Source of the DNA: a virus
Length of the DNA stretch: 21,762 bases
Strand: one strand, 5' to 3'
IMG/VR virus record: IMGVR_UViG_3300025853_000775
Coordinates: 1 to 21,762 of that record
The notes beneath the pieces are model-generated. The model did no database searches and had not been told where the DNA came from. It saw only the letters and a program-made list of their open reading frames with translations. A program made the position numbers and the translations under genes. This document shows positions 3,876 through 21,335 of the stretch, piece after piece (position 1 is the first letter of the stretch; each line of letters begins with the position of its first letter).

Positions 3876-4386
3876 TACAAGCGGCAAGCCTGTCACCACT
3901 ATCATAGAAAAGCCAGTTCCTACCGTAGAGTACGTTGATAGATGGCGCACAGACACCGTTAGATTTGTTTCTAAGGAGTTTGTTACTGTCAGGGACACAA
4001 TCACATCAGAGATAATAGTTAATCGATTAGATACGTTGTTTTTAGTAGACACTGTTAGCATTGTTGAGGCTTGGCTGACTGAGATAGCAAAGTACGACAC
4101 AACGATAGAGCAGGAGGCGGCTACATTGGCTTTGTCTTGGCAGAACTACCAGAACAGGTCTGAGAACCTAAAGATTACCTACACACCCAAGAAAGTTCCG
4201 TTGAAGTGGGCTTTAGGAGTACACGCAAATGCAGGTCTTCTGAGCGACTTCAAGGCGAGTTACGTTCCTCTTATGGGGATTGGTGTACAGGCAACTGTGA
4301 ATAGGAATTACTATAAGGTAGACTACGGATTCAATGGTGATCATTATGTTGGAATAGGATTCGGCAGGAACATCATCTCAAGATAG
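3766..4386 (+). CDS. membrane-anchored periplasmic protein with possible outer-membrane tail, spanin-like partner
   Basis: A 206-residue protein starting inside the previous gene. A membrane segment lies at about 17-33 (YLPYLIAFLMGVIVAWKG) with a cysteine just after it; the context (AWKGC) is not a good lipobox. The middle region is rich in Thr/Val/Asp repeats (FVTVRDTITSEI, LFLVDTVSIVE), as in periplasmic DUF6808-like proteins of Bacteroidota phages, a resemblance from memory. The last 60 residues alternate polar and hydrophobic residues with many Gly and aromatics (YYKVDYGFNGDHYVGIGFG), like outer-membrane beta strands. Its place after the endolysin and its overlap with another anchored protein suggest a spanin-type role spanning the periplasm. 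Unproven. Confidence 0.65.
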   Translation: MNWILNNDIVKHLLKTYLPYLIAFLMGVIVAWKGCGDTSGKPVTTIIEKPVPTVEYVDRWRTDTVRFVSKEFVTVRDTITSEIIVNRLDTLFLVDTVSIVEAWLTEIAKYDTTIEQEAATLALSWQNYQNRSENLKITYTPKKVPLKWALGVHANAGLLSDFKASYVPLMGIGVQATVNRNYYKVDYGFNGDHYVGIGFGRNIISR

Positions 4387-4390
4387 TTCG

Positions 4391-4398
4391 TATCTTTG
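4391..4398 (+). promoter_or_regulatory. Bacteroidota-type -7 promoter element
   Basis: TATCTTTG matches the Bacteroidota sigma-A -7 consensus TAnnTTTG exactly and lies five bases before the ATG at 4404. No convincing TTG -33 element is found at the usual distance. The very short distance to the start codon would give an almost leaderless transcript, so this may be chance. Confidence 0.3.
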
Positions 4399-4403
4399 AA
4401 TGT

Positions 4404-4685
4404 ATGAGAGCTTCCACATACATCTGCACAAACATAGAGGAAATTGAAAGGGTAAAGGAAGAAAACGAGAAGTTGAACCTGCCCAATCCTCAACCACTTC
4501 CAAAGCCAACATACGAAGAATCAGTAGGTTGGTTTCACATTGACGATGTTACCAGAGCGTATGTTAGGTCTATGAATGGAAATGCAGTGGCATCTCTAAT
4601 GTTCTCGGACGGTACTTATATGGACATCAAGATGACATCTGAAGTTGAGGAGATGTTAGATATTCTTTTTAGAAATACCTTTTAG
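4404..4685 (+). CDS. hypothetical protein, end of the late operon
   Basis: A 93-residue acidic soluble protein. The first 30 residues look helical and charged (NIEEIERVKEENEKLNLP), then comes a proline-rich linker (NPQPLPKPTYEE). The remainder contains GWFHIDDVTRAYVRSMNGNAVASLMFSDGTYMDIKM, with Gly/Asp turns suggesting a small beta domain. It starts 17 bases after the spanin-like gene and may have its own promoter (TATCTTTG just upstream). Its 3' end overlaps the convergent helix-turn-helix gene on the other strand by 30 bases. No family is recognised. Confidence 0.65.
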   Translation: MRASTYICTNIEEIERVKEENEKLNLPNPQPLPKPTYEESVGWFHIDDVTRAYVRSMNGNAVASLMFSDGTYMDIKMTSEVEEMLDILFRNTF

Positions 4686-19708: not shown

Positions 19709-19741
19709 TAAAAAAGGTCGTACCAATTACGATACGACCTT
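19709..19741 (-). terminator. Rho-independent terminator in the early array
   Basis: On the minus strand the stem GGTCGTA (19733-19739) pairs with TACGACC (19716-19722) across a 10-base loop, extended by two A/T pairs to nine pairs, and is followed by six T residues (19715-19710). It follows the gene ending at 19767 and would cut the first two early genes and the structured RNA off from the rest of the array. Confidence 0.85.
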
Positions 19742-19766: not shown

Positions 19767-20135
19767 TTATGCACGATCATATGAATCATGCTTTTCTACG
19801 AATTGGAAGTTATCTAAAAGGTCTTCAGCAATTAGTTTCTTCGAAGATTGTTCCACGAACTTGCTGAAGTTTCGATACTGAAGAGAAACATTCGTTCCAC
19901 TTATTTCAATACTCATCGGCAAACTCTTCTTTATTCCATTCAAAGAGCTACGGTTTCCTCGTTCTTCGCTTCGCTTTTTCAAGGCGATTATATCTTTACA
20001 AAATTCTGTTGAGTCTTCAGCAATCTTTTTCATTGCTACGTTTTTACCTCCTTCAATTTTGAATGCTTTTACTGCCTTGAAAGAATCGTTTCCTGATTTG
20101 TTTACTTGCTTAAGTGTTAATACAAAAGTTTTCAT
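19767..20135 (-). CDS. basic hypothetical early protein downstream of a structured leader
   Basis: A 122-residue basic protein: MKTFVLTLKQVNKSGNDSFK at the start, a central KKRSEERGNRSS loop and an acidic C-terminal stretch (AEDLLDNFQFVEKHDSYDRA). No membrane segment or known family. Its ATG lies 16 bases after the closing helix of the candidate RNA at 20152-20301, so its translation may be controlled by that structure. A terminator follows 26 bases after its stop, so it and the basic gene at 20314-20589 form the first early unit. Confidence 0.65.
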   Translation of the reverse strand: MKTFVLTLKQVNKSGNDSFKAVKAFKIEGGKNVAMKKIAEDSTEFCKDIIALKKRSEERGNRSSLNGIKKSLPMSIEISGTNVSLQYRNFSKFVEQSSKKLIAEDLLDNFQFVEKHDSYDRA

Positions 20136-20151
20136 TTGTTTATAGTTTTAT

Positions 20152-20301
20152 TTGCGCCAATCGTTTGGTCATGGCTTAAGCTTCGCTTTGGATCTAAACC
20201 TACATTCGTACAATGTAGACCAATAAACTACCACTTTATATCTTTGCCCATTTGTTAGCTTTCGCAATTCGGCAGGTTCACCACTTGGCGCAATATTGCG
20301 C
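20152..20301 (-). ncRNA. candidate structured RNA or 5' leader element
   Basis: The 178 bases between two genes carry unusually many complementary segments on the minus strand. A 9-bp closing helix pairs TTGCGCCAA (20285-20293) with TTGGCGCAA (20152-20160). Inside: TGCC/GGCA (20271-20274 with 20245-20248) around GCGAAAGC, a GNRA-type tetraloop; ATAAA/TTTAT (20235-20239 with 20223-20227); TTGGTC/GACCAA (20218-20223 with 20165-20170), which encloses TACATT/AATGTA (20212-20217 with 20201-20206) and GGTTTAG/TTAAGCC (20194-20200 with 20173-20179, one G-T pair). A 14-bp palindrome at 20288-20301 could form a competing hairpin. No long ORF occupies the segment. It could be a riboswitch-like leader of the next gene or a free RNA. 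It matches no family I can name. Confidence 0.5.
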
Positions 20302-20313
20302 TATGTTTGCAAG

Positions 20314-20589
20314 TTATATCTTACCTTGCCTTTTTAGTCGTTCGTTTCTCTTTTCCATTCGTTCGGCTTGCCTTGCTTCCTTTCGCTTCGCTTTGAATGC
20401 CGTTCTAAGTAGTGCCGTTTCCAGGTGTTCCAACTTTGCCGCATTGCGTTGGATCTTATTACTCTTTGCAGATCTTGCGCTTTGCGATTGGTAAACCGCT
20501 TTGGATCGCTTGCGACCTTTAACGGTGTAACCCTGAAAAGTTACCTCAGTTTCAAGCCTTACAGCGTTATTGTTAATTGTTCGTTTCAT
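20314..20589 (-). CDS. small very basic early protein
   Basis: A 91-residue Lys/Arg-rich protein, the first gene of the minus-strand array. The N-terminus has beta-like TEVTFQGYTVKGRKRSKAV; the rest is helical and highly basic (SARSAKSNKIQRNAAKLEHL, AFKAKRKEARQAERMEKRNE), ending RLKRQGKI. It probably binds nucleic acid or ribosomes. Being first after the control region and next to the candidate structured RNA, it could be an RNA-binding partner or an early host-takeover protein; both are inference. No family is recognised. Confidence 0.65.
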   Translation of the reverse strand: MKRTINNNAVRLETEVTFQGYTVKGRKRSKAVYQSQSARSAKSNKIQRNAAKLEHLETALLRTAFKAKRKEARQAERMEKRNERLKRQGKI

Positions 20590-20812: not shown

Positions 20813-21050
20813 AATAGATAATATTCCTGACGTATCCAAGAAAAAAAACACTAACTGTCATACAAAAGACAATAACATAGAACACACTCAGCGAATACAC
20901 TTTGTTGTAAGTTCAAAATCGCATAACTTTTTTTTATGATATGCACTACCAACGAGAACAGAAAGTGCTTTAGACACATTGTTATTGATACCTGTTGAAG
21001 TTTTGGAATAAACAAGGAAACCACTAGAAAAAGTTACCAACAAAATCTAC

Positions 21051-21335
21051 AACATTGTATATACGACATCTGGAATGTAACAAAGCCCAAACGAAATTTA
21101 TAACATCGTCCAAACGAAAGTGTTAACAGTACCTTGTAATGCATAGTATTAACATCGTGTATACGATTGAAGCATAGTTTTATAACAACAAACACACGAT
21201 TATGGATCTTGCTCCAGGCTGCACTGTGTTACAATTCAGATCTTCCAAAGTAGGTAACAAGGTGAACGCATTTTAAGGTAGGTAACGGAATGATGCCGAA
21301 CGTAACCACTACGTACCAACAAGGTGTACACGTGA
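21051..21335. repeat. family of degenerate 18-bp direct repeats
   Basis: Seven similar segments run in the same direction, starting at 21051, 21079, 21102, 21151, 21184, 21256 and 21318. Their rough form is AACA-N8-ACGA. The best pairs are 21051 and 21151 (14 of the first 16 bases) and 21079 and 21102 (15 of 18). The copies at 21102 and 21151 contain the dyad TCGT-N4-ACGA. A partial copy lies at 20734. Spacings are uneven (23 to 72 bases). They look like binding sites for one protein. Confidence 0.5.
21202..21276 (+). CDS. 24-residue micro-ORF
   Basis: ATG at 21202, TAA at 21274-21276. The peptide begins MDLAPGCTVLQFRSSK and ends in VGNKVNAF; it is basic and reads like a small folded domain fragment rather than random sequence. 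It is followed 13 bases later by a second micro-ORF in the same direction. Part of a degenerate repeat (21256) lies inside it, which argues that the DNA may be regulatory instead. Confidence 0.3.
   Translation: MDLAPGCTVLQFRSSKVGNKVNAF

Follow-up and report, generated by a model that had tools for sequence, protein, structure and literature searches.

The put antiterminator RNA of phage HK022 consists of cis-acting hairpins in the early phage transcript and needs no phage protein. The N protein of lambdoid phages is a small basic protein that acts from a stem-loop in the mRNA, after which the polymerase resists terminators (PMC4499122); the P22 N peptide NAKTRRHERRRKLAIERDT binds boxB through an arginine-rich motif (PMC11480772). 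Pistol, hatchet and twister-sister were discovered through the occurrence of several self-cleaving classes at the same genomic place (PMC10085705), and the catalytic loop of twister-sister is GC(A/U)AG with GCUCA(U/A), including G5 (PMC5660989, PMC11620745).

The window, by which we mean the whole stretch of DNA analysed, is a 21.8-kb IMG/VR virus record. Comparison of one of its intergenic gaps with other phages suggests that an arginine-tailed gene, a hairpin termed P2 and a swappable RNA part together form a new virus gene-control device. This modular element is described neither by a family of Rfam, Pfam or PHROG nor in the papers that we found, and in the literature searched nothing arranged like N/nut is reported for such phages. 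The host is likely to be a member of the Bacteroidota, because the primase of the window has a BT4734-like domain, the same as in five other phages of the comparison set.

THE LOCUS

Minus-strand genes A (20314-20589) and B (19767-20135) are separated by a gap of 178 nt (20136-20313), part of which is overlapped by a single reading frame, an antisense one starting with TTG. The features of the locus are, in the order of transcription:

20314..20589, minus strand: gene A, first gene of the minus-strand operon, encoding a 91-aa basic protein (pI 11.4, net charge about +18)
20314..20382, minus strand: codons of the basic C-terminal tail of A (KEARQAERMEKRNERLKRQGKI), the RRAKR-type tail of relatives being replaced
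20288..20301, minus strand: P1, a GC-rich hairpin or palindrome GCGCAAUAUUGCGC, pairs listed by hand
20240..20284, minus strand: place of P2, degenerate or replaced in the window (GUGGUGAACCUGCC...GGGCAAAG)
20222..20230, minus strand: 5′ strand of P3, UAGUUUAUU, complementary to 20143-20152 with one bulge
20165..20223, minus strand: window-type junction domain, a UUGGUC / GACCAA stem closing hairpins b and c
20200..20218, minus strand: hairpin b, CUACAUU-GUACG-AAUGUAG
20174..20199, minus strand: hairpin c, GUUUAG-AUC..loop..GAA-G-CU-U-AAGC
20143..20152, minus strand: 3′ strand of P3, AAUAAAACUA, 7 nt 5′ of the gene B start codon
19767..20135, minus strand: gene B, 122-aa protein, function not assigned
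19710..19741, minus strand: intrinsic terminator AAGGUCGUA..UACGACCUU-UUUUU, directly 3′ of gene B, -17.3 kcal/mol

A long run of same-strand genes lies downstream of this terminator in the window. A terminator right after gene B, about 500 nt downstream, is found in the window, L168 and L164, that is, in 3 of about 11 phage groups. In the relative L002 the post-B terminator is at the same place, with an inner stem of different but complementary bases. Gene B homology is not detectable between phage groups, and the AlphaFold2 model of its product (pLDDT 80) had no PDB or viral fold match at E<=0.001.

Two kinds of repeat were noted elsewhere in the window. The 950-bp noncoding region ahead of gene A has five repeats of ~21 bp (TCGT-N-TTG..ATGTT type; 21046-21199, minus strand), which are possibly promoters or origin repeats. 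A short repeat, GTCAGGAAC, often with TGACAAT before it and ATT after it, is found between genes of the window, of L168 (several copies) and of L007; the window copies (minus strand, 18916 and 15781) look intergenic.

Two IMG/VR contigs, L002 and L004, have orthologues of A (76-78%) and B (60% and 41%) in the same order. Along gene A most of the nucleotide sequence is 66-76% identical to L002. Identity is 23-50% between 20355 and 20240 (23-26% at 20355-20296), with one better stretch of 70% at 20269-20295. From 20239 to 20091, which takes in the 3′ half of the gap and the start of the B coding sequence, it reaches 83-96%, before declining once more within B. The low block comprises the codons of the basic tail of A, its stop and the 5′ half of the gap; the domain at 20165-20223 is 86-96% identical. 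On this profile, therefore, conservation within the locus is highest in the 3′ half of the gap, and another, separate block was replaced. Two further phages, L015 and L139, were found through P2 and carry the same 3′ domain; their A and B genes are not recognisably related to those of the window.

THE FOLD IN THE GAP

A sequence-only reading of the window had proposed a structured RNA or riboswitch-like leader in this gap, held by a 9-bp closing helix that shares bases with a palindrome, with two mutually exclusive folds as a consequence, and had named compensatory changes among homologues as one way to check it. The helices are all present on the minus strand where that reading placed them, and the gap is indeed 178 nt. 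They include the palindrome GCGCAATATTGCGC (20288-20301), the 9-bp helix of TTGCGCCAA (20285-20293) with TTGGCGCAA (20152-20160), which encloses 124 nt and ends 16 nt 5′ of the ATG at 20135, the tetraloop GCGAAAGC and several internal helices. An argument from the energy of the whole fold fails: the 178-nt gap has an MFE of -38.8 against -36.4 +/- 3.7 for shuffles (z -0.64; 52 of 200 shuffles equally stable), and the 150-nt stretch originally delimited has -36.5 against -34.2 (z -0.60; 48 of 200 equally stable). The closing helix is not conserved, being present in L002 only with mismatches and lacking its 3′ strand in L004, L015 and L139, nor is the pair of alternative folds conserved in the relatives; helix and palindrome switch were both rejected as window-specific. 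Nothing specifically indicates a riboswitch, and a search with 4227 Rfam families gave no riboswitch or other RNA match for the window. The proposed location was broadly right and the main helix wrong.

A structured RNA without an Rfam match between genes A and B is nevertheless supported. As judged from the comparison, the real conserved RNA fold of the gap is smaller than, and different from, the one first proposed. Its core has the order GGUC, hairpin b, hairpin c (20174-20221, minus strand), with a family consensus of GGUC, hairpin b (CUA...UAG) and hairpin c (GUUUAG-AUC...GAU-G-CU-Y-AARC). In the window and L002 the GGUC/GACC stem closes a three-way junction; in L004, L015 and L139 an extra hairpin makes it a four-way junction. 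The 59-nt sub-domain 20165-20223 has a z of -2.1, with 31 of 1000 shuffles as stable.

Compensatory changes do exist in hairpins b and c. Across five phages (window, L002, L004, L015 and L139, loops masked; the window and L002 are close relatives), 98.7% of pair cells are kept and in 5 of 15 pairs both partners have changed; covariation scores 0.48, compared with 0.23 for shuffled alignments, 0 of 500 shuffles reach the observed value, and slid controls fail. All cells of hairpin b are paired (100%), with both-side changes in 3 of its 6 pairs, and in hairpin c 97.8% of cells are paired, with both-side changes in 2 of 9 pairs and an invariant GUUUAG strand. By this comparison the window-type domain (hairpins b and c) is selected for base pairing. 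It has no Rfam match, even at E<=10.

The GGUC-b-c core is probably enclosed by another closing helix, P3 (20222-20230 with 20143-20152). In the four relatives the P3 strands differ in sequence and keep their complementarity; 5, 107, 19 and 242 of 1000 shuffles did as well. By this measure L002 and L015 give strong support, L004 and L139 weak support. The distance from the end of P3 to the gene B ATG is 7 nt in the window and 7-13 nt in relatives. The place of P1 is taken in relatives by GCGC/GCGC or GCCC/GGGC hairpins. In the window and L002 only, the self-complementary CTTAAGC is present both in early codons of gene B (20107-20113) and in hairpin c (20174-20181), and these copies could pair.

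THE P2 HAIRPIN AND THE ARGININE-TAILED GENE

Comparison places P2 directly 3′ of the arginine-tailed gene in relatives: about ten phage groups have the hairpin, GUGGNGACCACAC-N4-AACGGA, 11-49 nt 3′ of a small basic gene with an RRAKR tail. L002 and L004 have GACCACANTATAAACGGACGA in common, and scans with GACCACANTATAAACGGACGA and relaxed forms of it gave about twenty more contigs with GUGGNGACCACAC-N4-AACGGA; many matches were chance sites in coding DNA and were discarded. A search of whole records with mismatches found second P2 copies in five genomes, with more on closer reading. Several genomes have two copies within one operon, some copies stand ahead of genes other than gene B, and the copies vary at the bases flanking the core.

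The consensus is nnnGUG-G-NGAC-C-A-CACnnn. Among 23 distinct copies, double changes are found in 4 pairs (the outer pair is A-U, G-C, U-A or U-G, and a G-C pair becomes C-G in L002), and the covariation score of 0.196, against 0.098 when shuffled, is reached by 0 of 500 shuffles. Because the patterns used to gather the copies prescribe part of the core, invariance in that part is partly by construction, as is that of the AACGGA after P2; this does not apply to the covariation of the flanks or to the link with the arginine-tailed gene. A covariance model built from the copies (R1) matched 15 of 15 family records searched at E<=2.4e-9, again partly by construction. With filters off, the same model gave no match for P2 in the window, the best hit having an E of 0.66 and lying elsewhere in it.

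The fetched sequence, 1.49 Mb, contains 18 ORFs ending RR[AS]KR.., and 17 of them have P2 11-49 nt after the stop; the eighteenth is a spurious 25-residue frame. As P2 was the reason for fetching these loci, what carries information is the upstream neighbour of P2, which is always an arginine-tailed gene. The proteins have 64-91 aa and a pI of 10.4-11.7, several groups are alike in the tail only, and the basic tail is at the C-terminus in all 17 motif proteins. That the basic upstream protein is a partner of the RNA, as the sequence-only reading had offered, is plausible given a family gene that is always adjacent and arginine-tailed. In the window, P2 and the canonical RRAKR tail are both lost; the tail of A is still basic, but changed. 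The closest relatives of the window, L002 and L004, have both. The joint loss is suggestive only, as a single instance, of tail and hairpin changing together.

Other searches gave no further members. The DNA pattern GGTCTA..TAGGTTTAGATC, run against all viral contigs, returned only the known relatives and unstructured chance matches. All new sites of the relaxed pattern TCGTCCGTTTA..GGTCNCC in viral and genome contigs were judged to be chance, mostly in coding DNA. One-mismatch sites in Bacteroidota genomes (2 of 395) were judged likewise, a backwards-pattern control also giving 2, and DNA and protein searches of phage GenBank records found no relatives. A phage RNA polymerase promoter (CACTATA core) was considered and rejected, as its TATA part varies between copies.

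THE EXCHANGEABLE DOMAIN BEHIND P2

After AACGGA and before the next gene is a slot whose content differs among phages. It holds a twister-sister ribozyme above the Rfam cut-off in L097 and L144; the matches at L178 (G009:17550-17840) and L180 (G015:2280-2560), of 37.9 and 38.4 bits (cut-off 34), lie directly between the arginine-tailed gene with P2 and the next phage gene. In L086 the slot is a tRNA, identified by ARAGORN as tRNA-Tyr; the tRNA match, at L185 (G007:45000-45340), has 54.6 bits and lies downstream of a P2 copy and a GGGGAUACCUAUGCCCC hairpin. About seven phages have short tRNA-like folds with an acceptor of GGACUAC/GUAGUCC or GGACUGC/GCAGUCC and a T-arm (pairing by eye). L150 has a long helix and L016 another fold, and the window-type fold occupies the slot in five phages.

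Second P2 copies, before a larger gene, are followed by a longer tRNA-like fold and then by a probable H-type pseudoknot (by eye). In L077 (5110-5330), L079, L132 and L147 these second-copy folds have a GGACUGC/GCAGUCC acceptor, a UUCGAGU T-loop and no D-arm, and an H-type pseudoknot that covaries stands between them and the start codon that follows; some of these folds are classed as tRNA-Gln by ARAGORN. First copies in L077 (4574-4720), L079, L089, L132 and L147 are accompanied by the hairpin GGGGAUACCUAUGCCCC, with loop AUACCUAU / AUAACUAU, within mini tRNA-like folds. L004 has at 4360-4590 a long structured RNA with closing helix TAGCTAAATGTAAAAGCGG/CCGCTTTTACTATAGCTA and a T-arm-like GGTTCGATTCCC, for which there was no Rfam match (L190).

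DISCUSSION

Our preferred reading, held tentatively and at a little short of probable, is that the gap represents, in divergent form, a modular phage RNA element that acts in cis and through which an arginine-tailed protein controls the early operon, in the manner of N/nut. We infer a mechanism in which the element would be transcribed between genes A and B at the head of an early operon and the tail of A would grip a P2-type hairpin in its own nascent transcript, as the N of lambda or P22 does boxB. Binding would let transcription pass the post-B terminator, set the expression of B, or both, and the exchangeable domain on the 3′ side, next to where B translation starts, would process, insulate or gate the B message. 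In the window, where tail and P2 are both replaced, the cognate hairpin would be a different one. The covariation of hairpins b and c and of P2, the adjacency of 17 of 18 ORFs, the repeated P2 copies, the terminators and the joint loss speak for this N/nut-like reading. Against it, the basic tail is C-terminal and that of N is N-terminal, terminators are found in 3 of about 11 groups, P2 is missing from the window, and tail and hairpin were lost jointly in a single case; N/nut also leaves the tRNAs and the ribozyme in the same slot unexplained.

Another explanation is a slot for transcript processing. Since several self-cleaving classes have been found at one genomic place, and exchange in a fixed slot led to earlier ribozyme classes (PMC10085705), the window-type fold might itself cut RNA: the exchangeable domain would cut, or direct the cutting of, the A-B mRNA, and the window fold would be a self-cleaving RNA or a nuclease site. 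Twister-sister (37.9 and 38.4 bits) stands above cut-off, and a tRNA scores 54.6 bits, in the same slot, whose constant companions are the tail gene and P2, and hairpin c has GCUCAA (GCUUAA in the window) beside UAG, a sequence close to the twister-sister-like loop GC(A/U)AG/GCUCA(A/U) (PMC11620745). However, even at E<=10 Rfam gave no ribozyme match for the fold, hairpin c has U in place of the catalytic G5 and C6, an SL4 loop is lacking, and tRNA and ribozyme may be mere insulators or passengers; we regard this explanation as unlikely. A more far-reaching proposal, quite improbable in our judgement, would make the window-type fold in the tRNA/twister-sister slot a small self-cleaving RNA, or else an RNA-processing module, of a new kind; the whole element, together with the arginine-tailed protein, would then be an RNA-protein system by which phages control early transcripts and which has not been described before. 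The junction and P3 could instead be a translational leader of gene B only, opening and closing B initiation through a ligand, protein A or temperature. This would fit a P3 that ends 7 nt before the ATG in the window (7-13 nt in relatives) and strong conservation extending into the first codons of B. It is doubtful nonetheless, as the shuffle support for P3 is only moderate (5, 107, 19 and 242 of 1000), gene B differs among phage groups with no detectable homology, and other genes follow some P2 copies.

The P2 core GGTGACCACACTATA resembles SP6/T7-type promoters, and P2 is nearly palindromic and recurs within one operon, as might be expected of a DNA-level element such as an operator, an origin or a phage-polymerase promoter. 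The TATA part, however, is not constant: it reads GTTA, ATAA, GTAA, CTAC or CTAA elsewhere among the copies, and the opposite flank changes with it. U-G wobble pairs are present in P2 and in hairpins b and c, and no phage RNA polymerase family (PF00940) was matched, in a search without a positive control; a DNA-level role is very improbable. Chance folding of ordinary spacer agrees with the whole-gap z of -0.6 and the unconserved closing helix of the sequence-only reading, and for that helix it stands. For hairpins b and c it is contradicted by the covariation and the exceptional conservation of 20165-20223, and as an account of the gap it is scarcely credible.

The locus offers a concrete candidate set of protein, RNA site and terminator with several natural variants. 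A slot in which tRNA, twister-sister, tRNA-like folds and an unassigned fold replace one another behind one constant hairpin is a natural experiment on what part tRNA mimics and self-cleaving RNAs play in phage messages; it is also a site at which new ribozyme classes might be sought. The joint change of tail and hairpin in the window is a lead on how protein-RNA pairs switch specificity.

COMPARISON WITH KNOWN SYSTEMS

The lambdoid N/nut systems (lambda, P22, phi21) are alike in having a small basic early protein with an arginine-rich motif and, beside its gene, a hairpin whose stem varies and whose loop does not, near the head of an early operon and ahead of a terminator, which in the family is seen in the window, L168 and L164; the RRAKR tail of the family resembles the P22 N RNA-binding peptide NAKTRRHERRRKLAIERDT. 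They differ in that the motif of N is N-terminal and the family tail C-terminal, that boxB is a short (5-bp) stem with a GNRA-like pentaloop whereas P2 is GUG-G-NGAC-C-A-CAC and lies outside that description, that the P2 site mostly follows the gene, and that the same element continues with a tRNA, ribozyme or fold. AACGGA invariantly follows P2, in part through the choice of patterns, and no boxA was recognised. HK022 put shares the cis-acting hairpins in an early phage transcript; put works without a phage protein, whereas the family element is always beside an arginine-tailed gene.

Twister-sister (RF02681) occupies the same slot in L097 and L144, and hairpin c has UAG with GCUCAA as in its catalytic loop (L004, L015 and L139). 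Agreement with the twister-sister-like loop is 9 of 11 letters in these three members and 8 of 11 in the window (UUUAG with GCUUAA). The window-type fold differs in lacking G5, C6, the SL4 hairpin and an Rfam match in all five phages that have it, and hairpin c was not filed as twister-sister because the catalytic G5 is a U. A tRNA-Tyr in L086 and acceptor-plus-T-arm folds in other phages take the same slot, whereas the window fold is without a T-arm or a 7-bp acceptor, and neither ARAGORN nor Rfam found a tRNA in the window element. The element stands outside the definitions of N/nut and of processing elements but would work like these known kinds.
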